Source: Nereocystis luetkeana
Lineage: Eukaryota > Sar > Phaeophyceae > Laminariales > Laminariaceae
Direction of reading: 5' to 3'
DNA length: 64,000 bases
Assembly (NCBI GenBank): GCA_031213475.1
Contig: JARUPZ010000009.1
Span: forward strand, 7,535,601 to 7,599,600
The translations under genes and the position numbers were made by a program. This document shows, piece by piece, positions 1,011-60,945 of this stretch. Each line of letters starts with the position of its first letter. The stretch's first letter is position 1. Below the pieces are notes generated by a model. The model did not search any database. It was not told the origin of the DNA and worked only from the letters and a program-made list of their open reading frames with translations.

Positions 1011-4000
1011 CAGTCGTTTTGCGCAAGTTTATACCTACTAAACATACCGTCGTATGTGGTTGCGTCTGATGAACAAACCCTTCAAGTATTGACTGGGGGG
1101 TAACCACGCCACACGACAGCAGTACCATCCTTCCAGAAATGGGGGGGGGCACATCTGACAAACGTGAAGGATACGGAGACACGGTGTTCTCCATGCACTT
1201 TAGGCCACGTGTGCAGTGTTTGCTTCTCCGTAACGACCGATATGCTGGCTTTGTCACCACGGTCATTCATATATCATACCTGGTATAAATAAGGAATACC
1301 AGTAACACGTTCCCAAAGCCTACGATCCAGCCCTACCTGGGGCGCAGTCAATAGTTTCCAATACCACATTCTCTGGCGTAAGCGCTTGGCATGATTCCCG
1401 CGTACGAAACGTTCGTAGCGATCAATCCTGGTTTGATCTAAGCGCGACCTCCCAGGTGACGGGAAGGGGCCATTTAGTCCAGGCATGTTTTCATAACTCA
1501 GCGACCACCGGCGAAATACACCTATCTCAGCCGGTCGCTCCCCGACCCAGGTGAGCGTTGGGCGTAGAAAAGGCGAATTTCAGTGTAACATGTGCACCAG
1601 ACGGTAGACCGTTTGTCACGACTCTTGATTGTAATTGAACACTTAAAATCCTTCGATATTGCTCGTACTTGATCCGTTGCCCCCTACCTCGCTCTCGCGA
1701 CCTTAATCAAGAGTTTATCGTGGTTTGATTAATAGCGGAGGGTGGCGTTGAACTGGTATCTTGCATGCACGAGTGCAGCAACCAAACGCTGTACTAACGC
1801 TATGCACATATTTAGATAATTTGTAAGTATTTCGCATGCATACTGTAAGACAGGACGCGGACAGAAGGGATACAAATTGAACCGGCTCAATCGAAGCATG
1901 CAGCGAGCTCTGCTTCGCGAGCTTGCCCGCGCGCTGGTGACGGGAATACTGCAAGTGGTTGCTTCACTTGTTATCGAGGTCTTCAGTTCGCTCACCTTAA
2001 TCGCGTCGGATATGATTCGGCGTGAAACGTGTTCCGTCGAGGTGTAGAGGCAGTGATGTCACCGGTAGTGCAGGGAGAAGGTGCGATTGATCGAGTAGGG
2101 GCTCGGTGCTTGTTTTCACAACAGGACGTTGGCAGGGACGAATGCATGGTGGTGCCCGTGGGGTAACATTCGACACCTCCCTCCGATACGCGCATGCTCC
2201 TGTATGTATGGGGTCCCCTCTGAAAGTCCATCATCGCGCAAACAGAGCGATGATCGTTAACGCTCCTTGGTCTCCCCGTTGTTCCGTGCGTCGGTGATCG
2301 GTGCCTACGTGGTCATTCGGGCAGGCAGGCAAGATGCGGAAAAACATACCTCCCGGTACCTGTAGACAGAACATTTCAGAGTTGCTGTATGTTGTGGTTG
2401 TTGTTGGCGGTGGTGTTCTCACAATGTTGTGTGACATCGCCGCCAAAAGTCTGCAAGCTATAGAGGGCGATGACATACCATACTTCGACACCCCCATGTT
2501 GACCTTTGTTTCTGAAAATTGAGTATGGGATGTGACGTTTTTGCAAACTCTTGGTACGGTGGAATGTGCCGTCGGTGCGGAGCATCATTGTCAACTTTTT
2601 GAGACTCGAGGTGATATCTTTCTTGTCGTTCATGATGTTTGCAGATTGATTTTTCGGATCCCCCGCGGTCAACTTCCAATATCGTGGGTGACATAAATAA
2701 AACTGCACTCCTCCCTTTCGACTGCCCCCCCGCTAATTTGCGGACCTTTTATTGTTCTTTTCTCGTGAGGAAGTTCGCAAAAAGCTCCCTTGCAAGCTCG
2801 AGCCAAGAACTTTCCATTTACGCACAACCGGAGTTGGCGCTTTCTCTACCGATTTCTCCCGAGCAAGTGCACTCTCACCCAACCTCACGGTACCGTTGGC
2901 CGACTTACACGTGGAGAGCGAGACCCCTGCAGCACACCTTCATGGAAGGTATACATCCACGTACGATGATATCAATGGTGGGAGGGGTGGCATCAACTGA
3001 TACTTGACTAGAGCTACAGTTGCTAGTGTAAATCGATTCAATATTTTCCCGAGTAGGAGATCGACATCCACCACTGCTAGTTTATGCCATCCGGGCAGGC
3101 AGACTATATTCGCAAGGACAAAATGCTAGTAGCAGTACGTACCAGGTTTGTCACGTTAGATGGGTGGGGTACGCCACGATCAAAGCAATGCAGTCGGGTC
3201 ATCGTAGGCGCTACTTCTTATCCCTTGCAGTGTTCCAGTTCTATTTTGGGGACAAACCACTTTGAACCTTGACTGGTATGTCCCCACAATGGAACTAACT
3301 GCAGCTCTGAAACGGTTAAACGCCCCACCACGGGCTACCGACAACAACGGATTGGTTGGTGGGCGCTAAATCTTCTTCATGCAATTACGCCTCTATATAT
3401 ACATGAAAGTACGTGTGTACAGTGAGAATCATACCAGATTGACACAAAATATAGCCGAGCAGGGGCATTCCTTGGAACAGCCCTTGCTCGATACTGGGGC
3501 CAGTGCCCGTCTTGTCCGAAACAAACTAACGTAGGTCTGATTCAGTGTCCCACATCACAATCACACGAGGATAATGATTTCGAGATGGACGTCAAAACGG
3601 CGTGACAAGAGGGATTGGATTGGTTTATCAAAACGTGGGCGCTCACAAGCCGGGTAGTCCACTGGAGTTGTAACGGAAAATTGTGTCATACGGTACTTAT
3701 TCGACCGCTCTATACGTTTCTGTGTTGGGAATGAATGCGTGCTGCCGTGGGGGCTGATCGAGGTAGGCGTGCTCTGATCTATAATAGCGTGAACGGAGCG
3801 GACGAACTGAATGTCTCGTCCTAAAGCAACGTCCGTTCGTCTTCGCGATGTAGTAATCGATCGATTTCTCACGCAGTCGGCCGGAAGACAGCCCACCCTT
3901 TGAGAACTGCAACCCCGTATTATGGAGAACCACGCAGTTTCAAGATTGAGACCCCTGTCCTAAAAAGGGCGGAAAAAGCAACGCAACGGTTGCTGTACTG

Positions 4001-4990
4001 TGGTACTTGCGTCATCCAGACAAATGAAAAGACTTTTCGTGTATACATAGTTAAACAGAACTACTACATTGGGTTTCATGGTATAGCTGCATATCACGAT
4101 GCCCTCAAGAACACGGCATAACTTCATCGCTAGGTCTCATGCTACTATCCGAGCAGTCTGTACGTAGGGGGCACATATCGTGAATTTCAAAGTGTCGGAT
4201 CGATCCGGCGCTTAAAACACACATATAGCCTATCTATGCCCTACGCTCTCTCACACTGCCGTGAAGGAGATTTTCTGAGCGCTAGAACGGGAGGAAGTTC
4301 GTTTTCGGTAAGCAGTCTCATGACGGGTCAAGATTATACCAGAAATCGTCTTGCACCTCGAAAAGAGATGTCGCTTCCAATGTTTTAATAGAGTGCAGAG
4401 CTCCTGCATGTTTTTCCTGGAAGAACTCCGTCATACAATACAGGAGTACTTTCGGGTTCATACTGCTGTGTGCAAATAGGCAGCGCTTTGGAAACACAAT
4501 GCAGCTTTAGTTTTTATTCTGTAGAGTAGATGGGTTGGCTTTCGTGTCCAAGGACTATGGTGGTTGATGATACCGACAGCCCTCGCGACGGGTACAATGT
4601 ATGTAGCCAATAACTTTTCAGAACGTCCCGCGCTATGATTTGTACCACGACGATGCCAAAACTAGTAAATCCGTGATAATTAAATGATATGTGTGTTCAC
4701 CCCGTATTTTATTCCATCCACCGGTTGAACAACAACCAAATGTTCCCCAGCGCCAGGATCTACGTTGCTTTGAATACGGTGGCATCTCTATTGTCGACCC
4801 TGGCAGCATTTTCAGTGTTGCTCCCCCCGAACAAAAGGTCCAGGGGTAAATGGTTGGCTGATGAAAAAAACTACTCCAGAGCATAAGAAGTGAGCAGTTT
4901 TTTTGTAGATATGATTTTATTTTTTTACTTGCAGGACTTGCCGCAGGCTAATTGTCGAGGTTACAGAGCCAGAGTGCCGTGGTCTGACAT
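1011..4990. other. About 4 kb with no recognisable gene
   Basis: Only short ORFs are present and they overlap on both strands with no recognisable domain. Homopolymer G tracts occur near 1141. One TACCTGGTA word lies at 1277-1285. I see no RNA gene or intact mobile element here. Confidence 0.5.
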
Positions 4991-5185
4991 GGACTGTTAT
5001 GGGCCGGGGTAGGCCTGCCAATAAACGTTTTGAGTTATGATGGGCTAGGCCAGGTCGCGGTCCATTCTCTAAAAAACCGACCGGTTGGGCCGAGCCGCGG
5101 AAACTGATATGTGGGCTCTACATGGGCGTCTGCACCCTGCTCAAGAGGCCGCCCACGCGTATTGATGGGCCGGTCCGGGAAGCAG
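4990..5185. repeat. GGGCC/GGCCC-rich degenerate repeat, block 1
   Basis: This block is much more GC-rich than its surroundings. It is built of interspersed GGGCCG, GGCCTG and GGTCGCGG words. A second block of the same composition lies at 5995-6240. The ORFs reading through these blocks on both strands have Gly/Arg/Pro-rich translations and are compositional artefacts. Confidence 0.5.
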
Positions 5186-5189
5186 TCTC

Positions 5190-8110: not shown

Positions 8111-9704
8111 ACGTCAGACGAGAATATACGTCTCATTTTACACCAACCACACAAAAGATGCCCATGTCTGTTGGCATGCACTCGAACATTCCCCTGGTCA
8201 CCTAGAGTTGTCGTCGTCGAGAAGAAAGTGCCAGGTTCGCTGACAGGGACCGCAACTCGACAAAGGATCAAACTCGGTCATACACAACACATTTCGGTTG
8301 GTCAGAGCCGATGCGCACAATGTCATGCCTAATTTAATGTATTTCGTATTAATAGGTGTACATACAATGGTCTTCACCGTTCTGTTCTGTTTCGTGTGTT
8401 CCCGCAAATAAATGGTCGAATGTCTAAATAAAGCGTACACCAAGAAGAAAGAATCACGTCAGAGACCAGCAAAAGCAAAGCTGAAGTAAATCGTACTGCC
8501 GAGGGTGTGCACGTGGGATACTGTTGTTGTTATAGAACTTATCTTCCATATTTCTAGAGGACGCTAAATGATAACTATTTAAGAGTAGTAGACAATCTAG
8601 GATTTAAGTAACCGCAGTCGTGGATTTGTTCAGCCATTTTGCGTACAACCTTGACTACGGGCGCACGTACTGAGTGGAGTAATAATGTTGTGGCAGCAAT
8701 AGCTGCTGTCACTGACGTATCGTGTATCATTGTGCATCAAGGATATATGCAAAGGATGCAGTATACACGTTTTCCGGTACGTACTCCTGTTTACTGTCGC
8801 TTGTTGTATTTTAGACCACAAAAAGTATACAATCCCACATAGGACTCGTAGACTACGTGGATTTCTGCCGTACTGTACAGTATAGAATGCAGAGCCAGGC
8901 GAAAGTCAGGTCCACGGCACCGCTGCTGCAGTACTACAATCGCACTACTCCTGCAGTTCTGAACTTGCACTGCGTACTATTAATACAACTGCTGCTGTAT
9001 GCAGGCTGTCTGCGGCATACATCAGTTTATTCCGTAGGCAAACGCTAGGTCACAGAACCTTGTAACAGGTGCCAGCTATGCACAAACAAAAGCATGAAAC
9101 GAATTAAAAACCGTGACATGAAAGTCTTTTTCAAACTATAGAGTCACTCGAACGGTACCTCTTTGTTGCCATGGAGTACAAACAAATCGATACATCTCTT
9201 AATTATTCCGTCGTGCGTAGAACGCCTATACGTAGTACGGGACCACTATTATTCCGCCGGGGTTCAAAATTAATACCAGGTACCAGGTAAGCCCTTCGTC
9301 TCTGACTCTCGGAGCCTGTTGGCGTTGCGTGCGTTGAAAATAGGCGATCTCGCCGGCGCTCGTTTCGCCACTCGTCCACATGGGAACGCGTTCATGTTTT
9401 AAGTCGGTTGTATTGAGTGCGCAAACGTACCGACGTCTGAGCTTTTGACTCCTCCCGCGCTCATACCCGCCGCACGACCCCTCGGGCTGGCCACCGGAAA
9501 GGCCCCGCCCCGGGTGGGGTTGAGGCGGGCGGGCACCTTTGCCGAAGTCCCAGATGAAAGTGTCCAACTCGCGTCGATGGCAGGCATTCGAAGTTCCTAG
9601 AGTACTCGTATTCCCTGCGCTGCTACGACGCGAATCTGGGTTTCAGACACCCCGGTTTGTATTTGTTTTTGGTCAAACACCAAAACCTCGACACATCTCG
9701 TATG
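8111..9704. other. No recognisable gene
   Basis: Short overlapping ORFs only. It contains TATTAATA at 8347-8354 and 8978-8985, and a doubled TACCAGGTA at 9274-9289. Confidence 0.45.
9274..9289. repeat. Two overlapping TACCAGGTA words sharing one TA
   Basis: Two 9-mers overlap by a TA dinucleotide, so the unit repeats every 7 bp as CCAGGTA. This is expected if a second insertion/excision event used the TA left by the first, or if the 7-bp unit duplicated by slippage. Confidence 0.75.
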
Positions 9705-9706
9705 CA

Positions 9707-23533: not shown

Positions 23534-23653
23534 TCATTGCATAGGTGGATACCTGGTATACTCAAAGAACCTGATAGCACCACGCTTGTTTACCTTGCCG
23601 ACAACCGCTTGAGCGAACAGACCCGCCACCAGAAGCCCGAGAGTCGCCCGCAT
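23534..23653 (-). CDS. Signal-peptide exon, copy A
   Basis: The ATG at 23653 opens a 39-codon frame. It begins MRATLGLLVAGLFAQAVVG, a textbook signal peptide with a short basic start, a hydrophobic core and a small-residue cleavage region, and then KVNK. Copy B at 63095-63211 encodes MRATLGLLVAGLSAHAVIG-KVNK. A donor-like AAG|GTGAAC in copy B, and the matching AAG|GTAAAC here, directly follow the Gly-Lys codons. The true exon may therefore end there, with the following residues being intron. A TACCWGGTA word at 23550-23558 is present only in this copy and shifts the downstream frame. This is probably the first exon of a secreted protein family or a pseudogenic duplicate of one, and the remaining exons are not visible. 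Confidence 0.45.
   Translation of the reverse strand: MRATLGLLVAGLFAQAVVGKVNKRGAIRFFEYTRYPPMQ
23550..23558. repeat. TACCWGGTA word absent from paralogous copy B
   Basis: Copy A reads ...TATACCAGGTATCCACC (minus strand) where copy B reads ...GTATCCACC. The flanks have equal length once 7 bp (CCAGGTA) are removed. This is an empty-site comparison supporting clean gain of 7 bp at a TA. Confidence 0.7.
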
Positions 23654-26640: not shown

Positions 26641-27207
26641 TAGATTCTACCAACAATGACAAAAGTGAGAGGCATGCCGGGGTGGGGGGAACTCTACAGT
26701 ACTGACTGCCCTCACCTTATCTCCGCCCACAGCAGCAGTCTTCACCTACCTATCCTTATCTTGTTTCGACTTGAGTCTCTTCGATTCTAAGGGAGGAGAG
26801 GTGACGGACGCTTTGTGAGTGATGGGGGTGGGGCACAACTCCACGGATGGATGCCTAGGGTACCTGACCTGACCCCTATACCGTGATGTTCACATACCAG
26901 GGTACGGTACCACGATCGCCATCCAGAATACCGCACACATATTCACCCCGTGCGGTTAATACACCCAGTGCATACTGTACTAGTATGAGGCATGGGCAGT
27001 AAGGTATCCTTCTGATACATCTTTTACATCGTCATGTATGTATGTGTGATGCATTGAGGGCGGTCGTGGCTGTGGCCGCCAGCACATACTTTCAAGTCAT
27101 ATGATGCATGCAACAAAGGTGCCCAAGGTAAAACAATTAGTGCCCATGTGACACTTTCAAACCACATACCTGGTAGATAGTAGGGTTACAGAGGAACGAG
27201 TGAAACA

Positions 27208-27555: not shown

Positions 27556-28440
27556 TGCTACGAAATAATACTTTCCTGTCTAGGATATATATGATAAGTG
27601 GAGCACAATGAGATGTCGATCGATCAAACTCATTCTAGTAACAACAACAGCGAAAGAAGAAAATACATTACACGTCGACATTTGTTTACCATTAATGATA
27701 GTCTAATCAACACCCCTAGAATGAAGAACAAAAAAAGCACGGGAAATCAACCTACGTACCTCTTACATACCAGGTATATAATGTACCAGGGGCAATGTAT
27801 ATTTATTTTATGTTCACATGCTTGGTATACAAAACGACTACACTGTAACAGCAGAATAGAAGTAGTATCGGCCCTCTTGAAAGAAAACAGACATAAGCTT
27901 TATAGCCGATGAAACGAAACAGGCCAATTGAAGACGGCACGTAGCTCCTGCAGGCGCTCGCCGTCTATTATATAGGAAATTGGAAGAAGTCTACTCCGCT
28001 CTCGCTCAGCCAGACAGAGTAAGTGAGGGTGCTAGCCTGGTATATCAGACACGCCACGGCACGGGTGCTGCCTTACTTTCTGACCTCCTAGCTCAAGGAG
28101 TTCAATATCACGCCCAGACTAAGGCTTTGAAGAAGGCACTGCTGCCGTAGTTCCCGCAGTAACTGTTTGTAAAACATTTCCGTGGCTGGTTTTACAGTGA
28201 GTGGAACGAATACAATATGATCATGTAGTAAAAGTGTCACACTAACTGGGCGCTGCCCACGTGCGGGGATCGACCAGTCAGAACATGTTGCATCAGAAGG
28301 CAAAAAACAGCAACCCTTACACCGTGGGATTGCTCGTAAAATAACAGGTATTAGTTTTTTTTTTCGAGAGGGCCGATGCTCTGCACGAGACACGTACTTT
28401 TGTTTCTTGAGGCCATCTCATCTCTTTTCTTACTGGAGGA
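27556..28440. other. No recognisable gene
   Basis: Short ORFs only. TACCAGGTA lies at 27768-27776. Confidence 0.4.
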
Positions 28441-28530: not shown

Positions 28531-30360
28531 ATGGAGATGGCCTACGCGTGCCTCGTACAGAGTGTCAACCCTTTCGTGAGAAACCTGAAATTAAGTATAA
28601 AATATAAGCAATCTCACGGTATATGTTATGGGGGATGCACTTTTTTGCGTCCGAAGGCAATAATACTTTCTGACCGGTCGAGTCCCTCACGTGAGCAGCT
28701 AAGCTGCTCCCGGTTAATCGACACTCTACAGCAATGAGTATTCCATGCAACACCCGGCAACATATGCCAGGTATGCAGCGGGGTGAAATATCAAAATACG
28801 ACACAATCATATGTATCACTGCTTTTCGGAGACGATGGATCTTATTTGGTGGTAAGCAGCGTTGCCCGTTCGATGTCTGCATGACTATTATTGCTGTTTC
28901 TTAGGGTCATTCTTGTCGGAGAACTTTTTCCCTTAATTTCCATTTTTTTCCGCGCAATTAACTCGTGGTGTATATGTCCAAACCGATGCCATGTCAGTTT
29001 GGGAACGTGATCAAACCAAACACCAGCTAAAAAACATACCAGGTAAGCTGCAAGGGTGGCTTCACCGCGGCATGCTGGTGCCGGTCGCGGTTCCATGTAT
29101 GCCCTCAAAGGGAAATAAATGCGTGTAGGTACGGTAGAACAAGCCGAGGTCGCGAAAGCGACACCAGACTGCCAACGGGTAACCACTGCCCGTAGAGCAG
29201 CAACCAGCAGCAATCAGCAGCAATCAGAACATCTACGAGCAACTTGGGAAACAACGTATATATATAATTATATATACAAGTTTTCCCTTCGGAGTGGCAT
29301 GAGCTTAGCGTGTAAGAAGACTCTTGCCGAAATACATATTTAGTGGGTTGGTTTGAACTATTCCACCAATTACTTGCAGTTGTATGTGCTGCAGTTGGGG
29401 CAATAGCTCAAATGTACCTGCTAACAACCAAATATGTATTAGTAAAAAGAAAATACTAGTAGTGGAACATGCAGATGAGGGTGAAGCAAGAGAGCGGTTC
29501 TAATGACCGAAAAAACAGGTAGTAATTATGTATTACTACAACTGTTATGAGATATGAAGGCGAGATGAGCGTGATACCTGGTATGCAACTTCGACAGTAA
29601 GCACTTGCTCCACGAATCGCAGCGCCAGTAGACACATACATGTTTTGCGACACCTAACGGTTCGACAACGAACGAAACCTTTGGCGGACGCCCAAATCAG
29701 CTACGACAGAAATTCCTCAAGGAAAAACGTCTTCAACGAAGCGTAGCAGTGGGCCCGGGGCCGGCGTGAAACGCAAAGAAGTCGAAGCGACGGGAGTTAC
29801 TGTAAGTAGTAGCATTAATTCCCTCGCAAACGCGAATGTCGCTAATTAATATCAACGGAATCAGCACACTGACTGGCAAACACCCAAGGTAGATTGAAAA
29901 AAACGGGATCTTTCGTTGCCCACAGCACCCAAAGAGGATGCAAAAAAGTCAGCTAGACCTTGGCACTCGCCAAGGCACTAGCGTGATGGAGGCGATGCAA
30001 AACCTGACACTCTTCTTGGGTGAAGAAACCACCACCGGAACAAAATGAACCAGTCCGCTCCCCACGCTTGAACTCAAACTACCCGCTGGCAAACTTGCAA
30101 GTCCACGCACAGCGGATGTTTGCTGAAAGTATTGAAATATTATAGAGCCAGGCGCACGCTGCAACGAAACGCCCTCAAACACCTCTGTATTCAGACCCCA
30201 GGCGCAGACCAAAGGCAGATCAACCGTGTATGATACCCTACCGGAAAATCATGACAGACACGAGAACAGACTCTTAAAAGTACGAAGATCTATTCCGAGC
30301 CCGAACCGAGGAGATCGACCGACACAGCCTTCCCGCTTGGCGGCGCTTTTCTCCAGTTCC
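28531..30360. other. No recognisable gene
   Basis: Overlapping ORFs of up to 123 codons on the minus strand (29213-28842) show no recognisable domain. TACCWGGTA words lie at 29037 and 29575. Confidence 0.35.
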
Positions 30361-30368: not shown

Positions 30369-31119
30369 CTATTCGCCGAACTTCGCGTGGCGTTCGCCCT
30401 GAACTTGCTCGTCGTGGGCGATGAAGAGCTCCCTGGAGTGCTTGGAGCCCGAGAAGTACAGGGGGGGCTTGCACAGGCCGATCAAGATGCCGTTGTCCTT
30501 GATACCTGGTAATTCCTTTGCAGTAGACACAATCCTTACGGACCTGCAAACATAGATTATAGACAACAAACCGACAGCACAAAGGAGACATGTAAGACGA
30601 GTTGAATACAAATATTTTTGTTGGTATGAGTTTAGTTGACGAAGACTTTAAAAAGGGCAAAAAATGCCAAAATCAGTTATACCGAATCCGTTTGAGCCAA
30701 AATCAGGTGTATGCTAAAACCAGGTAAAAAACGCGGGCCACGAGCGGTGTTCTGCCCATGAAGTCGGGTAAAAAAGAAGCGTGCCATATATGGCCTCCAA
30801 AATCTAAGTCGTTTCGTTTTCTTTACGGTGTAGATACCACGGGCTTCACTTGGACCTGCAGAGGGTCACTGTATATAGGCTTCGTTTGTTCTGCGATGGC
30901 GGGGGCGCCAAGAAGAGTATTTACTCTGGCGCCCCCCCACCGTCGACAGCTTAAATCTTCTTGACCGTCCTCGCGGAACTGCCAGCTCGGCACGAAATTA
31001 TCTTGCCGTACCAAACCTGAGACAAACTCGACGCGGGGTGGTGCAGATAAAGACCATGGTGATGTGTCGACCGCTGTGACCATAGAAAACAACAAAGCAG
31101 CGGCAGCAGGACACAACAA
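30369..31119 (-). CDS. Possible small secreted-protein gene, two exons (hypothetical)
   Basis: Two coding-looking minus-strand segments lie in the right order. The first starts at 31119 with MLCPAAAALLFSMVTAVDTS, which resembles a signal peptide. It continues through a non-repetitive stretch (VRQDNFVPSWQFREDGQEDL) to about 30850, with a CAG|GT donor-like site before the VQVKPVV codons. The second, about 30510-30369, encodes IKDNGILIGLCKPPLYFSG... and ends KFGE-stop. It is preceded by an acceptor-like TTACCAG that is itself part of a TACCAGGTA word. The presumed intron contains CTGATTTTGGC-type repeats. No family is recognised, and the join is inferred rather than seen. Confidence 0.3.
30503..30511. 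repeat. TACCWGGTA word overlapping a candidate splice acceptor
   Basis: On the minus strand this reads TACCAGGTA. The CAG at its centre is the acceptor-like trinucleotide before the putative last exon. If the gene is real, the scar either created or rebuilt the acceptor. Confidence 0.5.
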
Positions 31120-31560
31120 CTACCAGGTATTTAACAACTGAAGCACGTCGCACACCCCAAAGAAGAAAAAAAGTGAAACCAGCGTACCCATGTAGTATGC
31201 ATATTTATGTAGATACGTACTTATTTATGACGTACAACGTGTACGTGCGAGTACAGAGTTTATACGTTGCGTAATGCAGAATAATTTCAACCGAGGGAGG
31301 GCAGACGCATACGGAGAGAAACAGCAGTGTACGTATGTGGCCTCTCTGATTGGTTCAAAGTTGGCCAAAATCAGTTGAAAGCTAGAGAGAGTAGAAAAAA
31401 ACAGGTATAAGTTGGCCTTTTCGAGCCAAAATCAGTTACGATGTCAGCCTGGGCAATAGCAGGGCCAGCCTGGGGCTCCTGGGGTGTGTTGTGTACTTGT
31501 TTTTAGAATGTAACTCCTTTTGGCCGAAAGTGGCCAGGTATATACCTGATTTTGGCAAAA
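30660..31560. repeat. Cluster of GCCAAAATCAG repeats
   Basis: The 11-mer GCCAAAATCAG, or its inverse CTGATTTTGGC, occurs five times in 0.9 kb (about 30665, 30694, 31367, 31424 and inverted 31546). It is usually followed by GTTA or GTGTA and preceded by GAGC or TGGC. The copies are irregularly spaced. Confidence 0.55.
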
Positions 31561-31995: not shown

Positions 31996-32345
31996 TCATT
32001 TTATAAAATGGCAGTACGCGTACTATACCCCTATCTCGGTGAGCTCGTATCACGAAAAAAAAAAATGGACATTTGTTTTTGGTTAATAAGTACTGCTGTA
32101 GTACCTGGTACCTGGTATGTATTTTAACAACAACAACAACAACAACAACGACAGCAGCAGCCCATATACAAATGGCAGTACGCATACTATACCCCTGTCT
32201 CGGTGTGAGCTCGTATCAAGGATAAAAAGATGGACATTTGTTTTTGGATATACGTACTGCTCTAGTACCTGGTACCTGGTGCCTGGTATGTATTTGTGAA
32301 CAACAACAACCACAACAACAACAGCAGCAGCCGCGGCGGTCTAAA
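31996..32345 (+). repeat. Tandem duplication of about 170 bp
   Basis: The order ATGGCAGTACGC, ACTATACCCC, TCTCGGTG, GAGCTCGTATCA, ATGGACATTTGTTTTTGG, TACCTGGTACCTGG, and a CAA/CAG triplet run occurs twice in direct orientation (about 31996-32168 and 32169-32345). Both copies carry a doubled TACCTGGTA. The second has a third, mutated unit. Confidence 0.8.
32102..32117. repeat. Two overlapping TACCTGGTA words
   Basis: Two 9-mers overlap on TA (period 7). The corresponding position in the downstream duplicate (32266-32288) has three units, the middle one altered by one base (GGTG for GGTA). Confidence 0.75.
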
Positions 32346-33009: not shown

Positions 33010-34300
33010 CACGCAAATAATTCAATTCATAGTCCTGTGGTGAAACTTTTACGGAACAAAATAGAAAAAATAATCGGTCTACTACTATTATTGTATGTAT
33101 GCCGTCTTAGAGCCGGTCTCTTCGGGCCAAAGCAGCTGAGATCAACGGCAGTCCTGTTGAATATGTTCCCGAAAAGTCCCTCCACTCGCGAATAGTACAA
33201 AGCTCTCGCGAATCAGTGCTGACGATCTTGCGAAAGGCCACCGAAACGCCACCACGGCGACCGACCAGAGAAAACGAATTTATAGTTTTGTTTATATAAT
33301 ATATGCTCCTCCTCTACGTGCTACGTGCTGCATTTCCCACCCAGTACTGTTCGCAGCAGTTGTATCTCACACCTGTTTGTGGTACCAGGTACATAATTTC
33401 ATTCGATTGTAAAAAGCGGATATATATACCGATATCGTACCTACATCTGCACAAATCGGAAACTCTTTCAACACCGCCTTCAGGTGCGGGCGGTACGTAT
33501 TTCGAAGCGGGCATTCACATGCCGACATTTCGACGGTTTGTATGTCTTGCGCGCTTGCCCCGTCCCCACGAGCCCCTGAGCAGGCCACCGGGCAGGCCGT
33601 CCGCCGGTGAGGTCGAGGCAGGTGGCCACCGTACAGTAGGAGCACGGAAAGAAAACGAAAAGTCCCCCTCGCGATCGATGAAAGAACCTCGAAGGGCGGA
33701 GACACGTCGGGATCCCAGTCTGGCACCGACACGGTTTTGGGTGCCCGACATATGTTCACAGGGTAAGCGTGGGGTAAGGTGATCAGTAAAGACAACGGCT
33801 ATTTTACTGCATCTAATTTTTAGGGGATGATATATATTCGCAGCACGACGAGGTTCAACGTCGATCACACTCATCATACGCATGCCTAAAGAAAGTACTA
33901 AACTGCACGCGAAGGCATAAAAGGAAACCTACAGTCAGCTACGCAGGCACGTGGTCCAACTCCATTTCGCACGTGTCTCGGATCTCATCAAAATATAAGC
34001 ATACAAGTATAGGAGCCACCAGGTGCAACCCGGAAGCCGGTGATGTTCACATGTTGGACCCCCCCCCCATAGAAATGCCGGTACTTGATTATATCTACCT
34101 AGGGGCCACGAAAAACAAGGATCTGATATCCCATTACGTTTTCCGAGACGCAGACAAGGTATGATCTACGAGTCGATGTTTCTCCAGGACAGCCTATCAG
34201 GTGTCCCATTGGAGACAGATAGAAAACCCGACATCCTATCGTATGAACCACAGGACATCCTATATAGTATTCGTATCGTTCTTGTTCAGGTTAGGAATGC
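33010..34300. other. No recognisable gene
   Basis: ORFs of up to 159 codons overlap on both strands at 33303-33883 without a recognisable domain, and none stands out as coding. TACCAGGTA lies at 33383-33391. Confidence 0.35.
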
Positions 34301-38795: not shown

Positions 38796-39362
38796 CCACG
38801 AACGTTTCCACCAGCGCCCGCCCAACCAGCTCGCCCCGCCTCTGCCAACAGGTGACGCGGGACAACTCTCGGAGCCCGCGACCTACCAGGAGGCGATACT
38901 CTCGCCATATCAGGCGCACTGCTCCCATGCAATGGAGAAGGATATTGTCTGATTTGAGTAAGCTGGGGTATTCGGGGAGGCTTAGCTGCAAACGGGAGGG
39001 AGCATGGTATCGGTCAAGTGGGTGTGCACGTGGAAGGCAGATGAGCATGGTAAGATTGCAGAGGCGAAAGGGCGACGAGTGGCGAGAGTATTCAGCCAAC
39101 ACCCCGGAGTTCATTGCAATTTACCTTTTGCCCCCACCCTCTCCGCATCTTGTATCCGTATGATGGCTGCGATAGCCTGCGACTTACAGTTGGATTTATT
39201 TGTCGTTTCGAAGTGCAACAAGAGTTTGTCCAGGCCCAATTCCAAGACCTCGTTTTGATGCGGATGCCACCGGGCGGTGGAGATCTGAGGGGCAAAGTAA
39301 TGCGTTTGAATCGCAGTCTATACGGCTTGAACCAGGCGTCGAGACCCTGGCAAAGACACCTA

Positions 39363-39475
39363 TTACGGGGGACCATAGTTAACAGGACCAAATATTGTTA
39401 GTAAAAATGGCTAAATATGTAGGATTTTTATGTAAACCATAGGTCCTACCAGGTATTACCTATGGTCCCCCGTAA
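39363..39475 (+). mobile_element. Stowaway/mariner-like MITE, copy 2, inside copia RT
   Basis: Ends read TTACGGGGGACCATAGTTAA and the inverse, flanked by TA at 39361-39362 and 39476-39477. RT homology continues on both sides, so the MITE inserted into the copia element. It carries its own TACCAGGTA word at 39447-39455, absent from the other copies at that position. Confidence 0.85.
39447..39455. repeat. TACCAGGTA word private to this MITE copy
   Basis: Other MITE copies read GGTCCTATTAACTATGG or GGCCCTGTTAAC at this place. This copy reads GGTCCTACCAGGTATTACC. The difference is 7 bp (CCAGGTA) gained at a TA. Confidence 0.8.
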
Positions 39476-39949
39476 TAGTCATCCGCCTGAAGAATCTTAG
39501 CTTTGAGCAGAGCCTCGCAGATCCGTGTGTTTGTCGTTTAATCGAAACGGCGTCTGTTTCCTTCATTGCTGAGGTTCACGTCGACGACAGTTTTGCGGTA
39601 GGACGGAAGGAGAGGTGTGACCGTTTTTGCGAGGGCCTGAACCACCTAGTCCCCTTCAATAGCCTTGGCGAGCGGTGATGGTATGCCGGTTGCAACTATT
39701 CCAGAGACAAAGTCGCGGGTTTATTAACAATCTCACAGAAATCGTTCACGGAGAAGCCAGTCATGCAATTTGGCGTGACCGCTGGTAGGAACACCTCACT
39801 TTCTCTTTATCTTTTTTTTCTAGGTGTTTGACAAGGAGGAGACCACTGGTTGACTAGCCGTAAGGTGAACTGGTAGGCAGCTTGATGTGGCTTTCCAATG
39901 AGACGATACTTGATATCTCGAATGCGGTGAGGGCGGTCGCGAGGAATAT

Positions 39950-40574: not shown

Positions 40575-40915
40575 TGAGTCAATTTTTGGATTGTTTTTAG
40601 ATATGATGAGGCGATTTATTGTACCTGGTATTTTTTTGGGTTTGATGAATCGGTTTTTGTGTTGTTTGGGGGGTTGACGAATTGTATTTCATTGAGGTTC
40701 TACGAGTCAATTTTTATTTTGTTCTGGGATTCGGGGGATAGATCTTGGATTTCCTGACTTGAGAAGTTGATCATCGATTTTTTGGTTGAAGGATTGGTTT
40801 GTGAATTATACTGAACCTTGGAGGTTCTGATTTTTATATTATTGAGATCTGAGGAGTTGAATTTTTTTCTTTTCTATTTTAGGAGATTTGAGACTCTGAT
40901 TATTCTTTTTTTGGG
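40570..40915 (+). repeat. T-rich degenerate tandem repeats, about 30-35 bp, in copia 3' region
   Basis: About ten units of the form (G)TTTGATGAGTCAATTTTTG followed by GATTGTTTTTGGG, heavily diverged, run from the end of pol toward the 3' LTR. The third line carries TACCTGGTA at 40622-40630. Confidence 0.6.
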
Positions 40916-46084: not shown

Positions 46085-46470
46085 GCCAGATGCGGGGGGG
46101 TAGAGGGAGACGGGCGGCAGAATAAACATGGCTCTGTGGCTCTTGCCTGGTTTGTATTACCTGCTGCTGGGAGTGTGTCATTAGAGAACACGTTATGTAT
46201 GATACCTACACATATACATACCTGGTATGCAGTAGATACCTGCCACCAAGTCTCCCCAGGTACATGGGCCGAGGGAGCTAGTTTTGTCGTCACGTACGTG
46301 CTCAATGTGAGGTGTGTGGTGTACGTCAAAGGGCTAGGTGAATCATACATGACGTTCGACAGAAGTTTTCTGCTGCTGCAGTATCTGCTGCTGCTCCGGC
46401 TGCTGAGGTTGATAAAGATCATAACTGGACATACGGGCATTTTCAGTTTTGTTGACTTTTCAACGCAGAG
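46085..46470 (+). repeat. Diverged direct duplication, left copy
   Basis: Shared order with 46570-46960: GGCAG...ATGG, GGCTCTTG, ATTACCTGCTGCTG, CTCCCCAGG-TAC, GTGCTC, a CTGCTGCAGTAT block, and GCTGAGGTTGA. It contains TACCTGGTA at 46219-46227, which has no counterpart in the right copy. Confidence 0.55.
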
Positions 46471-46960: not shown

Positions 46961-47567
46961 GAAAACACGTTCTAAAATGTGGGGGTTTCCATGTCGCCTA
47001 CTCAGCTCGGCTAGGCGAAAGGCAACGCCTTGCTTTTTCGAGTCAACTCAGCAACGTTCAACACCCCGAGCACCACCATGGTGCTCGGCCGGGATCCAGA
47101 CGTGCGTCGTAATGTACCTACGGCCCCTTTGCTTGGCCCGCAGCCGAAAGTGCGCGAAGGAACCCTCGGCCGCCGGAGAGCAGCATCCTAAACAAATGGC
47201 GCAATATTATACTTATACATATATACCCTGATGGGCCCGTCATGTGAGTGAATGTGTCGCTCTTAAAGAGTGACAGCATGCACTCTCGTCCCTCTGGAGT
47301 GCCAGCATTGCTCGCTGCATCTTCCCCCTGCAATCTGGAAGTCAGCTATCAAAATTGGTTTGTAGCGGCACACCTGCTGCTCGTCGAACAGAAACTTCGC
47401 TATATCACCCTGGTACGTAGCTTCGTTGAACAATACATTTTACGGTGCTAGTCGAGTAAGAATATAGGCGCACTATGTATACGTACGACACGCCGTACGA
47501 CGTACCTGGTAGACGATACGACTTGACTTGATAGGTACTGCTGCAGAGCATTGATACAGTATGCTAC

Positions 47568-47582
47568 TATTAATACCTGGTA
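47568..47582. repeat. Compound scar TATTAATA + TACCTGGTA sharing one TA
   Basis: TATTAATA (47568-47575) and TACCTGGTA (47574-47582) overlap by TA, giving TATTAATACCTGGTA. Two different palindromes used the same TA in succession. Confidence 0.8.
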
Positions 47583-47619: not shown

Positions 47620-47885
47620 TGGGCCGTCCCGTGGCCTCTTGAATGTCTATGCGATGCTCGATGGAACGTCCCATTCGTTCATCTATAACATGTCAAACAT
47701 CCCATAGGATGTCCCAACGGATAATCCGTCGGATGGCCCACAGCATGCTATACATCCCATGGGATATGCTGCCAGATGACCAATAAGACGTACCAGGTAT
47801 TAGATATTGGGCATTCTATTGGACGTCCCGCGGGCTGGCTCACAGGATGTCATTCAACCCATGGGATGTCCCATAGTAGAATCGG
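47620..47885. repeat. CCATGGGATGTCC palindromic-word satellite, block 1
   Basis: The block is composed of variants of CATCCCATGGGAT and GATGTCCCATAGGATG at irregular spacing. The same words form blocks at 52090-52350, 53280-53680 and 55290-55780. Many units are themselves near-palindromes. Confidence 0.65.
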
Positions 47886-48378: not shown

Positions 48379-48649
48379 ATGACGCGTGCGCTTCGCCCCC
48401 ATTGTTTCTCAGTACGTCCGTGTCTGGAATGGGGCATGGCGGTAGTCGAGGGCATCGGGTATCGATCTTGCATCTCACCACTCGTACAATATGGTGTACC
48501 AGGTATATATTGTGTACCAGGTTTACGGTATACAGACCATGTGTGTTTGGTGCACTCCCCAAGATACGGTTTGAACAAGAAGGGCGTACCAAACGCATAG
48601 GCAGCCTAGACTATTAACGTATCATACATTCGACATATCAATATACCGT

Positions 48650-51230
48650 ATTGACACTGCCGGACGCTCACAGTCGAAGAGCTATGGCTGACACGGCTCT
48701 GTTGTGGGTTGCGGATGGCATGCTGTTGACCGTTTCCCGTTTGGCGCTGTTGATCCACAGCTGCGATTGCTGACGCTGATGTACCATAGTCCATCGTTGC
48801 AGTTGCTATCCCTCTGGTCGCCCGGTTGATATGTACCTGTTCCGACTATATCGGTCGCAGTCAATATACCGCTGACCACGACTCCTGCCGCTCGCCTATG
48901 ATACACAGATGTTTCTGACACGGTAGGGCCAGAATTGCGGTCGGCACACAGGCTGTTGATAGGCAGCTGATGCTGACACGGGGCAGCAACGGCTGGCCTC
49001 TTTCATCACCGTGCATACAGAGTTCCCCATCACTTCGAACACAACGGTGTTGCCGACACGGTTGAAAAATATAACGGTTGATATACCACTAATACATGAA
49101 GCTATTGATGACACGTTAGAGTCGTCGATCCAGTGGTTTGGGATACCCCGTTCCAACATTGCCCTACCGAGGCTATAGGGGAAGCTGACTCGGGATTGAC
49201 GTAGGCGGTAAACCACACGGCCCCCTCTCTCGGTACGGCATAGCCACCGCGCGTTCACGCAGCTGGCGCGATGTTTTCCTCATTTCGTTCCGACGTCGAC
49301 GTAACCGTAACCAGATTCCAGGTAGTGCGTGGGTGGTAGCATGGTTGCGTGGCAAATCCAGCCACCAATGTTGCACGGGATCGAATTGTTTCGAATGAGC
49401 TTCGTGTTCTTCGCTTGTCGGTCGATACTCAGTGACTGTTCATGACAAGGTTGCCTTCCCGCGGCTCGCGGTTCAAGTACAGCTATGACTGCCGCAGCTA
49501 TGTTCTGGTTGCGGCTGATATATCACGAACTGCTGTTCCCGTGGGCTTCGATTAGTTCCCAGCTAGGATCGCCGACAAAGCTGTGTCATAGCTGGCCCGC
49601 TCGTCGCGCTGTATATTGATACAGCATGTAAGCAGACACAGATACGACAGGGTCACGGCCAATGTATCGCTAGTCGTAGCCCACGCCCCTCGCCGTTGAT
49701 ACTCATACCAGGCAGAAACGGATGCGCCACAGTGGTTATCGGAACATGGGCTGTCGATAGACTGCTCAGTTGGCACGGCGTAGCTACGGCTGTGTTCTCC
49801 TGCATCTCGGTGCATACTGATGTATCGTGTCTCCGATACGGTTGTGTCAAGTTCGTGGTCGATGTACTACTTTTTGATGCACAGCGATTGCGGACAGCGT
49901 TGTGTCATCGTGGCAGTGACTGATACTGCCCGTGCCGACGCTGCTGCACGTGGGCTATATTTCTGGTTTATCTCGAGGTGGTGCTATTAATAGCAGTAGC
50001 CCACACCGCCCCCCCTCCCAGTTGCTTGATACAGACACGATACAGCAACCGCACACCGGACAACGCCGCGTTTTCTTCCTTTCTTACCAATACCCCTGCG
50101 CCATCCGTTCCCCCTCAACCCATTGCTGCGCGGGTGCTATTTATTGCTCTCCGCTGGGCGTAATTGGTACGTAGTGAGGGTGGGCATAGCCATGTCGCAG
50201 ATGAGGTTTGGATACCGCTGGTCGTTTCTCCAGGGGGTGGTGGTTGACATAGCCATAAGACTCTCACGGATGCATGCCGGACCGGTTGATATATCGATGT
50301 TTGCATACCGTTGGCTCCTCCATTGTCGCGTTTGATGCTCAAATGGTGTAGGCAGGGCTGTGCCATTGTGGCGGTCAGTATACCGCTGGTCGGTCTGCTG
50401 CCGGTCGCGGTAGATACACGATTTGGCCCACACGCGGTGGCGCCATTACTGCGATTACTCCCCGATTGACCGCCACTGACACACAGCTACCATACGGCGG
50501 GCAGCCTTCGTATGCGCTTGCTCTACACCTTGTCACTTCACTCCACAGTACGCGTGGTGCAGATACGTCTCTTCCCGGCTGTATACAAAGTACATGGTCA
50601 AGGTCTCGCGCGCTGTACGCGTGATCTTATACGATAAGTACGTCAAAAATACGGTCGCGCGCGCGCAGGTTATAGGACGGGGACTACCACTGCGGTCAAC
50701 AACACAAACAAAGCTTCCTGTTGTGGGCATGACATATGAGAAGTGCGCTTGGCTTCCGCTGTACGTACTATATGTTTCACGAGACTCGTCGTGGTGGCTA
50801 CAACGATTGAATGGATCCACCGTTTTCGATATGCCTTTGTCATCAACGGTCTCACCGAAAAACAAGAGCGTACCTTTATCGCTTTGCTGATGCGGGTGCG
50901 TCTCGTCTATTGCTAAGACGGTTGTGTCAACGGCAAGTATTGTAGTTGCCACACCGGTAACGCTGACAGCGCCGTGTCGTAAGTGTGGGTGTTGTACCGC
51001 TATGGGGAACATACGCCGCTCGCTGTGTATCGGTCGCAGCTGCTAGGTCGCTGTTAACTGACAACGCTGTGTCATGGCCGCGGTTAGTACAACGTATGAT
51101 GGTAATGCCGCGATTACCCCCAAGGGAGAGCGCCAGAAAAACGCTTTGACGGGCCCAAAGGATCTGCAACGCTAATCGTTGCAAGATGAATACCTGGTAC
51201 ACGAGGGTAGGGGATCCGCGCAGGATTTAC
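48650..51230. repeat. Highly degenerate satellite-like array (2.6 kb)
   Basis: Phrases such as GTTGATA(T/C)AC, CTGACACGGTTG, TGTGTCATxGTGGCGGT and GGTCGCxGT recur throughout in the same orientation at roughly 50-120 bp intervals with heavy divergence. No gene is evident. TATTAATA at 49985-49992 and TACCTGGTA at 51191-51199 lie inside. Confidence 0.55.
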
Positions 51231-51599: not shown

Positions 51600-51770
51600 T
51601 ACCTGGTAGAGTAAAATCGCGATCAATGAAAAGGCCTACAGCGATGGCAAGGAGGTGGCTCCATGTATCGGAACCCGCAAACCTATTGCAGAATGACTGA
51701 CCCCCGGATCATTGACCTGTTGGCTTACGACCCCAAAGCCACAGAAAGGAGGCCGTGGAATAAATACTGA
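51600..51770 (+). repeat. Segmental duplicate b
   Basis: Partner of 47885-48060, beginning with a TACCTGGTA word (51600-51608) at the point where homology starts. Confidence 0.6.
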
Positions 51771-56514: not shown

Positions 56515-56626
56515 TTACGGGGGGCCATAGTTAATAGAACCAAATATCGTTGGTAAAAAATCGTAAATATATACCTGGTAGGTTTTTATGTATACCATAG
56601 GCCCTATTAACTATGGTCCCCCGTAA
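56515..56626 (+). mobile_element. Stowaway/mariner-like MITE, copy 3
   Basis: Begins TTACGGGGGGCCATAGTTAA after a TA and ends CTATGGTCCCCCGTAA. The right flanking dinucleotide is TG rather than TA. It carries TACCTGGTA at 56572-56580, shared with copy 6 but absent from copies 4 and 5 at that position. Confidence 0.85.
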
Positions 56627-57174: not shown

Positions 57175-57527
57175 TACATTTTTGTTTCTTGTTTTTATTT
57201 TTGTTTTTTAATCCTTACTTTTACTGCCAAGACTACCTCGTAGGAGGTGTTTACCCTCCGCGATCTTCTGGACAAGCTGTTGTCACAAGGTGTCATCCCT
57301 TTTTCCTCCGGTACGCGCTTTTATTTTTTGTCGTGCATAGGGTTCAGCGTTCCCGCTGCTCGTCGATTTTCATCGAATGTAGCTAGCTCACGCTCTTCTC
57401 GCGTGTCCGCCAGTCATTTTTCAAGCTAGAAAAGTCCGTATGAGTACGAGCATGCACTCGGTGAGACTCAAGCCCACGAAATCGATCTTGATAGGCACGC
57501 GAACCACCTACCAAGCCACCGGGGACG
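57175..57527 (-). mobile_element. tRNA-derived SINE, copy 3
   Basis: Minus-strand copy with a well-kept tRNA-like head: GTGGCTTGGTAGGTGG near 57510-57525 and a T-arm of GTGGG/CTCAC around CTTGAGT near 57460-57478. The A-rich tail appears as T-runs at 57178-57210. At the 3' junction it reads CTACGAGGTAGTC, with no TTAATA, in contrast to copy 4. Confidence 0.75.
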
Positions 57528-57557
57528 TGAAACCATGAAACACTGGGGATAGACTAC

Positions 57558-57615
57558 AAAAAAAAATACCAGGTATATATATATATATATATATATATAC
57601 TTGGTATTTTTTTTT
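57558..57615. repeat. AT-repeat hairpin bounded by TACCAGGTA / TACTTGGTA
   Basis: AAAAAATACCAGGTAT, about 24 bp of AT repeat, then ATACTTGGTATTTTTT forms an almost perfect inverted repeat. An (AT)n expansion inside a TACCAGGTA context would explain it. Confidence 0.7.
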
Positions 57616-57811
57616 ACCTGATGATGGTTTTCTAATTTTGATTTCCCTCGGTGGTTTAGTTCGTTCGTGGATTCTTCTGACGAGGATGTTTTTGCAGGTG
57701 ATCGACGGGTAATCTCGTGCCTGTGCTTTCTTGTGTTCTGGGGACATCTGGTGGTCGATCGACGATGAATCTCGCCGTGCTTGTATGTGCCGTCTCCTAA
57801 AAAAGCTGCTA

Positions 57812-57916
57812 TTACGGGGGACCATAGTTATTAAGACCAAATATTGTTGGTAAAATTGTTTAAATATATAGTTTTTTGTATATACCATAGGTCCTATTAA
57901 CTATGGTCCCCCATAA
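57812..57916 (+). mobile_element. Stowaway/mariner-like MITE, copy 4
   Basis: Ends TTACGGGGGACCATAGTTA and TAACTATGGTCCCCCATAA, flanked by TA on both sides within a GCTA...TAGC context. It has no 7-bp insertion. Useful as the empty-site reference. Confidence 0.9.
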
Positions 57917-58602
57917 TAGCAACTACACGGCACCCGTAGTACAGACGCACCAGGTACAGCAGCGGTAGCCGTTTCACCCCGCTCGGTAACCCTACTTCCT
58001 GTATTCCGTGTGCATGTGTATGTGCTAATGTCTATGTTCCCCCCGAACCAAAAGGTATCGTATACAATACCACGTACGACAGCAGTTACTATAATAGTAG
58101 TATGAATAGTGTGCCAGGGTATCGTGTCGCTGAATCGGGTGGAATGAATACGCCAGGCATACATATATATATATATATGCACCCCACTTTTAAGTGGGAA
58201 AGAATCGATTGAAATATATCTCGCCGAATCTTGTACAAGATTGCCTGTAGACTATGTACGTAAAAAAGTTAGCTAGATCCTCAGAGCCGCGTGTTCGTCT
58301 TTCGTACCGTCCCGACAGAGGGGGAAAAAAAAAACCCTCACCTACCGCAGCAATACGGTTCCTGAGTACTACTGTACTCTCAGGTATCAGCTGCAAATCC
58401 CCCGGTCCGTGTGTGTGTGTGTGTGTGGTTTCAAGGCGTTCACATGGGAGGCGAGTTTTTTTTTTCATTCGAGGCTGCTGCACCTTTTGGTCGCATGACC
58501 TCCGAAGTATGTGCTGACGGCGGCTACGACCGCTCCCGATTCATCACGCAGGCACACACTGTACATGGCGGTACAAGATGCGTCAAAACGGAAAAACTAC
58601 TA

Positions 58603-58707
58603 TTACGGGGGACCATAGTTAACAGGACTGAATATTGTGAGTAAAAATGGTTTAATATATATGTTTTTATGTATGCCATAGGCCCTGTTAACTATGGTCC
58701 CCCGTAA
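58603..58707 (+). mobile_element. Stowaway/mariner-like MITE, copy 5
   Basis: Ends TTACGGGGGACCATAGTTAA and the inverse, flanked by TA on both sides within ACTA...TACT. It has no 7-bp insertion. Among the least diverged copies. Confidence 0.9.
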
Positions 58708-58934
58708 TACTACGCACGCCTTATACTCGTACAGCAGTAAGTAGTACCTGGCGCACCAACCATACATATATTGTCGGGCGGGTCACCGTCGGATGGCGGA
58801 CGTAGTAGTGTATGAATTATGCGGTGGAAGCACCAAAGCAGATCAGTCGTTGTGGTAGACCTCCATCCATGGAGGTTGTGCCCTCACCCCCACCGCTCAC
58901 AAGATATTTCGTTCCCTCCTTCCTCTTCACATCG

Positions 58935-59280: not shown

Positions 59281-60199
59281 CCGCGGTAGCCAGCATCTAT
59301 CTAGAGAAATCACAATAGAGCCAGCGTATATCGCTTTTTGCGCCCACCCGAAGGCACGAAATGGAGCATGACCGTTCTGACGAGCTCCTCTCACAGGGCT
59401 GGCCAAGGGGTTTCGCAGGATCATTTTGGTTCTCTGATACACCACATGGTTCTGGAGATACGGCTTGGTTCTCATTTTAGGCTTCGTTCCCATTTTTCCG
59501 ATCTGTCTGTTTGCTGCTGTTGAAACCTGTGACGCAAACCTACTCCGCAGGAGTGCAATGAACTTGGTCACACACAGCCGCGTTGCGCGCAAATGAATTG
59601 GTGCCGCGGCGGTCTTACAGGGAGGAAAGTCAGCAATTACGTTCCCCGATCATTCCCGTTTTGTTCGTCCACCACTGCGGGCAACAGGCCCCCCTCGGTC
59701 CCTCCCTATACCTACCGAGAGCGGGCGAGACTTCCTCAGTAAATTTCTTCCACATTCACACGTACATGTCATCTGAGGGAATTATGTGCTTGCTATTAAT
59801 AACACAACTATTAATACCGTTTCCGCACATTTATGCAGGGTGCCAGAATGAAAGTTGCCAAATCGATCCCGCTGAGCCTGGCAGCAGCCATACTTAGTCT
59901 ACCTGAAACCCGAATACCATAGAGATACGAGTAGGAGTACCTGGTATGTTCGCGCCTCGTCTAATAAAACGCCAGACAAAGTACAAAGCGTTGTTCTCGA
60001 GCGATTGCCGTGCGTTCGGACAACGATTGCGCGAGCTGCGCCCGCACCCGCGCAACGTGATGATCTGCTGCAATTGGCTAGCTAACATGCGTCTGCGTCG
60101 GCACCGCCCGCTTTACCATGGGGTGCACCCCTACTCGTTTGTGCTCCTTGCTGTACAAGCATAGGGTAATAATATTGTTTTGTTAATAACATAATACAC

Positions 60200-60565
60200 A
60201 CCGGCGTCCCCGGCGGCCCAGCAGGTGGTCCGCGTGCCTACTAAGATCACTTTCTTTCGTGGGTCAAGCCTCATCGAATGCATACCTACTCGTATAGTAC
60301 GAGTAGTAAGAAGGACTTTTCTTGCAAAAAAATGATTGGCAAAGCGCGAAAGCGTGAGTTTAGCTACATTCGATGAAAATCGACGAGCAGTGGGATTACT
60401 GAACCCTATGCGCGATAAAAATGAAGCCACTTACCGGTGGGGGGAAGGGACGACACCTGTGACCACAGTCTGTCCAGAAGAAGATCGTTGAGGGTAAAAC
60501 CTCCTACGAGCTATTAATAGGCTGGAAAGCAAAAGTGATGATTCTAAAAAACAAAAACAAAAAGC
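60200..60565 (+). mobile_element. tRNA-derived SINE, copy 4
   Basis: Plus-strand copy. The tRNA-like head (CGGCCCAGCAGGTGG, GTGGGTCAAGCCTCA) is at 60211-60275, the body core CGATGAAAATCGACGAGCAGTGGG at about 60371-60394, and the tail ATTCTAAAAAACAAAAACAAAAAG at 60540-60563. It carries TATTAATA at 60512-60519, where copies 1 and 3 have only a TA. Confidence 0.75.
60512..60519. repeat. TATTAATA scar inside SINE copy 4
   Basis: Copy 4 reads CTACGAGCTATTAATAGGCTGG. SINE copy 1 reads CTACGAGGTTAGGCTGG and copy 3 CTACGAGGTAGTCTTGG. The gain is TTAATA at a TA, the predicted excision remnant of the window's MITE family. Confidence 0.75.
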
Positions 60566-60828
60566 TCCAAAAAATCTCGCTAACTAAGTGCAAAAATACG
60601 TGATCGTGTGCTTGACGTAGATATATATATCATCAAAAGACTGCTCTTGGGATGCACATAAAGCTAAAAAAAAAAGTAAAACCGTACGAAAAAAAGAGCA
60701 AAGCACACGTGTGTTGTTCACATTTTTACCATTAATACAATGTAAACCGTTATTTCTATCATACCCATCGACATCCAGCACACTCGGTGTCCGTGCTAAT
60801 AAGGGATACAACAAGCTGCGATGTACTA

Positions 60829-60945
60829 TTATACGGGAGGCCATAGTTAATGGGGCCTCCTTTGGTATACATAAAAACCTACCAGGTATATATTTAGACA
60901 TATTTACTAACAAAATATGGTCCTATTAACTATGGCCCCCCGTAC
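60829..60945 (-). mobile_element. Stowaway/mariner-like MITE, copy 6
   Basis: Ends TTATACGGGAGGCCATAGTTAA and TTAACTATGGCCCCCCGTAC, flanked by TA. The internal sequence is in reverse orientation relative to copies 2-5. It shares the TACCWGGTA word (60880-60888) with copy 3, so the two form a subfamily. Confidence 0.8.

Follow-up and report, generated by a model that had tools for sequence, protein, structure and literature searches.

In a 64,000-bp window of the genome of the brown alga Nereocystis luetkeana (contig JARUPZ010000009.1; C9:7535601-7599600) the palindromic word TACCWGGTA is strikingly over-represented, and we estimate at slightly better than three chances in four that it is the excision footprint, or scar, of a TA-targeting, Tc1/mariner-type cut-and-paste transposon whose ends begin with CCWGG or CCW and which has since become rare or died out. 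A footprint had been proposed in an earlier sequence-only reading of the window, and this proposal is supported in part, by the enrichment, the lack of a single carrier repeat, paralogs with a bare TA scored against a control, and a two-sided preference around the target TA; its argument from the ambiguous central W fails.

All 27 copies that the sequence-only reading had counted lie exactly at the starts it gave (centre A in 11, T in 16), and the figure of about 0.5 that it expected by chance agrees with 100 dinucleotide-preserving shuffles of the window (mean 0.50, maximum 3). TACCWGGTA leads the nine-base TA-x-TA words of the window, with 27 against 0.61 expected and four for the runner-up, and the centre is W in 27 cases against C or G in one. 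The genome-wide check proposed at the time is equally clear, as the 465,085,209 bases in 1,987 contigs contain 182,395 copies, ~105-fold more than the 1,744 of the same word reversed, i.e. ~1 per 2.5 kb and, at 7 bp each, ~0.3% of the genome. A 264-kb sample, made up of the window and 20 stretches of 10 kb at fixed, non-random places on contigs C1-C10 (one of which, L024, contains 2,500 N), has 96 exact copies against 2.3 expected (~40-fold), 0 to 9 per 10-kb stretch, and 126 one-mismatch neighbours against 54 expected (~2-fold, centre variants being counted twice). Chance is ruled out as the source by the window shuffles and the reversed-word control, and a single dispersed repeat as the carrier by flanks that are mostly unrelated. 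The unrelated contexts originally claimed are indeed seen for most window copies, but not for 56572 and 60880, which share one position of a miniature inverted-repeat transposable element (MITE), or for 32102, 32109 and 32266, which belong to a tandem duplication; in all, three of the 27 sit in copies of this element, MITE1, and three in the duplication.

Scars with sufficient flank were compared with paralogs. Each was stripped of its 7 bp and the remainder was aligned to other sampled DNA, duplicate loci being dropped; a paralog was accepted with 15 ungapped columns per side, ≥70% identity there, TA in the paralog and ≤85% A+T. A spanning paralog alignment was obtained for 21 of 114 scars, ten of which, at eight distinct positions (Table 1), show an ungapped bare-TA paralog, while 11 alignable scars failed the criteria and 93 had no spanning paralog. 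In the control, other TA-N5-TA words (n=1,138), only 14 of the 282 with a spanning alignment gave a bare TA, and among these the words at L035:4739, L039:2262 and window 39440 and 39454 overlap genuine scars, those at L024:3703 and window 57598 differ from the scar by one letter, and four share the word TACTCGATA, which a fifth carries on the opposite strand. The difference between 10/21 and 14/282 indicates that the scar arose when 7 bp were inserted at a TA, and the earlier statement that paralogs differ by exactly 7 bp at a TA holds for 39447, 56572, 60880 and seven scars beyond the window. Bare-TA paralogs set against TA-CCWGG-TA thus display the insertion at TA, with TA duplication, that characterises Tc1/mariner elements.

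The flanks point the same way. Pooled over 92 non-overlapping scars and compared with all TAs, they depart most at -1, -6 and -7 (chi-square 48.8, 50.3 and 75.0), the preferred bases beside the scar TA being R at -1, T at -2, A at -3, T at -4, A at -6 and W at -7. Pooled flanks carry a built-in symmetry, and the sides were therefore also scored apart after the centre base had been used to orient 98 sites. The counts for the two sides are 82 and 79 for A or G at -1, 44 and 49 for A at -6, and 81 and 82 for A or T at -7. An AT-rich preference on both sides of TA, as in Tc1/mariner, is the trace expected of a dimeric TA-targeting transposase.

MITE1 provides an internal control. It is a TA-flanked palindromic element of ~105 bp with ends TA-TTACGGGGGACCATAG ... 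CTATGGTCCCCCGTAA-TA, whose inverted repeats and TA duplication (TA-TTACGGGGG...CCCCCGTAA-TA) are accompanied by insertions of ~107 bp seen against paralogs without it. A second TA word enriched in the 264-kb sample, TATTAATA (56 against 1.5; CTATTAATA, 54 against 0.6), is both MITE1 ends joined, as TA-TTAA-TA. The flank bases T/A/C occur at.56/.52/.51 in 63 TATTAATA scars and at.67/.70/.70 in 30 intact MITE1 ends, TAC before TA being commonest in both, so that scar flanks match element flanks. In this genome, then, palindromic scars appear to be left by one or more elements of TA type, with the donor still present. MITE1 is found both complete and as a scar, with one target preference for the two, and on grounds of economy TACCWGGTA is likewise read as a product of excision.

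The W was originally explained by an A:A or T:T mismatch at the centre of rejoined overhangs, but it is uninformative. As TACCTGGTA and TACCAGGTA are reverse complements, the two are one double-stranded word, and W follows automatically when one scar sequence is inserted in both directions, whether or not there was a mismatch. One product dominates, and the words expected from a ragged CCA or CCT overhang are at background (TACCATA 17 against 16.8, TACCTTA 9 against 9.0, reverse complements similar); TACCATGGTA, seen once against 0.24 expected, and TACCTAGGTA, not seen, are too few to judge. A self-complementary five-base overhang would best fit this uniformity. In such a mechanism the transposon would insert at TA in AT-rich surroundings (roughly ATR-TA-YAT), duplicating the TA, and its excision would leave a few terminal bases between the two TAs, the gap being sealed by end joining. 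Five-base 3' overhangs, CCAGG or CCTGG, self-complementary but for the centre and comparable to CAG in Sleeping Beauty, would anneal and be ligated to give the uniform product; in a less favoured version a three-base overhang, CCA or CCT, would overlap by one base. The donor would have been long mobile, nearly always excised, and now rare or gone. When 11 observed and 2.4 expected double-counted words are subtracted, one-mismatch words remain in moderate excess (115 against 51.7), which corresponds to ~7% decay per base with ~52% of words intact and, as a rough figure if decay is simple, to ~350,000 original events. The most specific history, of a TA-targeting lineage with an unusual five-base self-annealing CCWGG overhang that made hundreds of thousands of jumps, left a near-invariant scar and dwindled, the scar TAs then becoming preferred landing sites, is tentative and falls somewhat short of an even chance.

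Several results weigh against excision by such an element. Passages in PMC9976928 and PMC7913693 state footprints of 0-4 and 2-4 bp for these transposons, and the 5 bp between the TAs here exceed the 0-4 bp range; with neither donor nor transposase found, the likeness to Tc1/mariner is one of behaviour only. Among TACC..GGTA inverted-repeat pairs in 357,093 bases (340,662 without duplicates) none resembles a CCW-ended element, a search that long or edge-cut elements would escape because the pieces, apart from the window, are ≤10 kb, and no CC-ended element was recognised among TA-flanked inverted repeats (288 kb), split-alignment insertions or transposase loci. The rough upper bound on donor copy number, computed with the 357,093-base figure, is about 4,000. 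The profile PF13358 has no match in the genome and neither has PF01359, though the latter result says little as PF01359 matched in no control genome either. PF03184 has 28 matches in the genome and none in the controls, and the two groups with readable ends begin CAG, not CC (CAGTACCGG at both ends of the L048 and L051 elements; CAGTGGGGGG at one end, L038 against L040). None of these three families, the ones tried, could thus be linked to CC ends. Pogo-like (DDE_1) elements with TA flanks were noted at L048:235-2422, L051:168-2399 and in L038/L040.

The distribution of scars adds further adverse points. The overlapping word TACCWGGTACCWGGTA occurs 15,917 times genome-wide against 2 for its control, so that overlapping scars are ~12x commoner than random TA choice would give (~1,367), and among 59 plus-strand places listed 40 overlaps have the same orientation and 19 the opposite (p 0.009), the latter comprising 14 of A then T and 5 of T then A. 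Duplication or a hot-spot effect may account for some of the tandem excess, and the same-orientation excess suggests that some duplication also occurs. One-base-short words are mildly enriched (TACCAGTA and TACTGGTA together 20 against 7.9; TACCTGTA and TACAGGTA 17 against 10.2), as is a minor product, TACCGGTA (10 against 4.0). Nor does a second haplotype yield a new TACCWGGTA. Two contigs of bacterial metagenome-assembled genomes (MAGs), found via the MITE1 word, carry algal DNA: L058 (JALZVY010000069.1), 100% identical to C11 over L058:91-2087, and L059 (JALZWD010000061.1), 98.6% identical to C4 over L059:15-3702. At this identity they are probably of the same species, and L059 looks chimeric, as the algal match stops at about base 3702. 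The strain comparison once proposed as a check, run over 3.7 kb, gave no site at which one individual has TA where the other has TACCWGGTA, all three copies being common to both haplotypes. L059 has one extra MITE1-type scar (CTATTATTAATAATAG against CTATTAATAG, TTAA+TA added at the central TA), which is not one tandem duplication but could equally result from two separate 3-bp slippages; at L059:2762 the genome has an extra 6 bp (TACCTGGTACTGGTA against TACCTGGTA), a possible tandem duplication or new scar lacking one base. A palindromic MITE, TTAA-CCCTTTTAGAACCGCAG..., is present at L059 ~2940-3050, L026:387-463 and L028:406-482; its TTAA flanks and CCCTTT ends look piggyBac-like.

Four other explanations were considered. 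If a nuclease or transposase opened TA and a short fixed sequence were added or captured there, by abortive insertion or as a self-propagating micro-element, the 7 bp could be inserted directly and no full element would be needed. The lack of a donor in sampled DNA, the dominance of a single product and the strong repeated targeting of existing scars would all be accommodated, but MITE1 shows element and scar side by side with target preference alike, and we know of no enzyme that makes such a 7-bp insertion at TA; we consider this route unlikely. Local duplication or microsatellite-like slippage draws on the 40 same-orientation overlaps among the 59 listed and on the 6-bp difference at L059:2762, which a tandem duplication could explain. 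It is very improbable as the general means of spread, as the word cannot start at a bare TA and isolated scars are seen against bare TA, opposite-orientation overlaps are frequent and are beyond simple slippage, and 15,917 overlaps among 182,395 scars leave most scars without an overlapping neighbour.

Scars far in excess of any candidate donor would also follow if the elements were kept in a different life stage or nucleus and were cut out by programme before the sequenced DNA is formed, as in ciliates. Removal of this kind is not known to us in brown algae, MITE1 copies persist in the same DNA, and the word has decayed by ~7% per base, so that the scars seem to be passed on as such; this is scarcely credible. 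Hardly more can be said for a protein-binding site under selection, which an exact, highly over-represented 9-bp palindrome might bring to mind, as the word appears as a clean 7-bp insertion at TA, decays, occurs inside MITEs and other repeats, and stacks in overlapping arrays, such as the run of five or six scar-like units linked by TAs at L027 ~1861-1907.

Excision footprints are familiar from single loci and assays. That of Sleeping Beauty, TACWGTA, arises by end joining of 3-base 3' overhangs, according to passages in PMC4378557 and PMC7827188, and as described there it is, like TACCWGGTA, a palindrome with a central W between two TAs. The word here is nonetheless distinct, with CCWGG not CWG, five bases left not three, 182,395 copies in one genome and no donor found; the Sleeping Beauty-type word TACAGTA is itself only ~2-fold enriched in the 264-kb sample (77 against 35). 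Mos1 ends begin CCAGG and mariners share the TA target, but PF01359 is unmatched (as in every control) and TACCATA and TACCTTA stay at background; the mariner 5' break is placed two or three bases inside the element in a passage of PMC2642840. In rice, a passage of PMC4423477 counts 94 putative DNA-transposon excisions, of which 8 are perfect and the others have a deletion or filler, a genome-scale view of excision scars comparable to ours except that here one uniform scar dominates. Ectocarpus, likewise a brown alga with Tc1/mariner MITEs (TcMar-N1_Ec32 and relatives), has almost 12,000 Mariner-Tc1 copies, most non-autonomous, according to PMC12477816, in the main text of which the words 'footprint' and 'excision' are absent. 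Among the matches listed in literature searches of incomplete coverage, on the word and on genome-wide transposon footprints, no title describes such a finding.

If excision is correct, the genome records the jump count of a vanished transposon in a scar open to counting, mapping and dating by its decay. Such scars would let one measure how often cut-and-paste elements jump over evolutionary time, and would show how a haploid-diploid alga repairs these breaks and how many small insertions stem from excision, not insertion. The same reasoning detects MITE scars (TATTAATA), including one by which the two haplotypes differ.

Table 1. Scars and MITE1 copies in the window, and scars with bare-TA paralogs beyond it (L-numbered sample stretches).
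Feature	Position	Strand	Evidence or remark
Scar TACCTGGTA	1277..1285	+	exact word match
Two overlapping scars TACCAGGTACCAGGTA (9274, 9281)	9274..9289	.	exact word match
Scar TACCTGGTA	23550..23558	+	word match and paralog ~63190
Scar TACCTGGTA	27167..27175	+	exact word match
Scar TACCAGGTA	27768..27776	-	exact word match
Scar TACCAGGTA	29037..29045	-	exact word match
Scar TACCTGGTA	29575..29583	+	exact word match
Scar TACCTGGTA	30503..30511	+	exact word match
Scar TACCAGGTA	31121..31129	-	exact word match
Two overlapping scars (32102, 32109)	32102..32117	.	one unit of 164-bp tandem duplication
Scar running on as TACCTGGTACCTGGTGCCTGGTA	32266..32274	+	second unit of 164-bp duplication
Scar TACCAGGTA	33383..33391	-	exact word match
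Scar within MITE1 copy	39447..39455	-	paralog alignment; bare TA in other copies
Scar TACCTGGTA	40622..40630	+	exact word match
Scar TACCTGGTA	46219..46227	+	exact word match
Scar TACCTGGTA	47503..47511	+	exact word match
Scar TACCTGGTA	47574..47582	+	TA common to preceding MITE1-type scar CTATTAATA (47567)
Scar TACCAGGTA	47791..47799	-	exact word match
Scar TACCAGGTA	48497..48505	-	exact word match
Scar TACCTGGTA	51191..51199	+	exact word match
Scar TACCTGGTA	51600..51608	+	exact word match
Scar within MITE1 copy	56572..56580	+	paralog alignment; bare TA in other MITE1 copies
Scar TACCAGGTA adjoining (TA)n tract	57567..57575	-	one-mismatch copy TACTTGGTA across tract
Scar TACCTGGTA	59938..59946	+	exact word match
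Scar within inverted MITE1 copy	60880..60888	-	paralog alignment; bare-TA paralog; position same as 56572
MITE1 copy	26079-26184		
MITE1 copy	39361..39477	.	
MITE1 copy	56513-56627		
MITE1 copy	57810..57918	.	without scar
MITE1 copy	58601..58709	.	terminal inverted repeats identical 24/24
MITE1 copy, inverted	~60829-60947		
MITE1-type scar (CTATTAATA or reverse complement)	59793..59801	.	one of 12 listed in window
Bare-TA scars	L011:1501, L029:206		one repeat, one position
Bare-TA scars	L012:1501, L017:2648, L024:3808, L039:2269		
Bare-TA scar	L035:4746		paralog is pogo-like L050

Two of the tabulated loci have further structure. The paralog of scar 23550, at ~63190 on the minus strand, has TA without the 7 bp, and with a 4-bp gap nearby the pair is still consistent; the surrounding DNA forms an inverted duplication (22728-23847 and 62909-64000), whose ~1.1-kb arms are about 80% identical and separated by 40 kb. 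In the 164-bp duplication, the unit with scar 32266 has one extra 7-bp unit relative to that with 32102/32109, one base being altered.

The window is without tRNA genes by ARAGORN and without Rfam matches. A Copia-type retrotransposon remnant (RVT_2, E 1.5e-7) at 39054-39398 and surroundings is apparently broken by a MITE1 copy. An open frame of 346 amino acids (20264-21301; as a minus-strand feature, 20264-21415) belongs to a brown-algal protein family without Pfam match, and those of its 67 relatives that are named by taxon come from Ectocarpus, Laminaria digitata and Scytosiphon, except for one assigned to a Marinobacter MAG. A pattern for relatives matched seven stretches of viral contigs, none of which was confirmed. 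No viral contig has the MITE1 word, and nine viral stretches with the double word were taken as chance, eight holding only that pair and the ninth one site more. A dispersed repeat of ~280 bp (9756-10040, 27260-27550, 57252-57527 and 60200-60510) has a tRNA-like segment (GGTTCAAGCCTCACCGAG, one strand) and is possibly a short interspersed nuclear element. Finally, TACGAGTA/TACTCGTA is ~5-fold enriched in the 264-kb sample (42 against 8.75) and is perhaps a third scar type.

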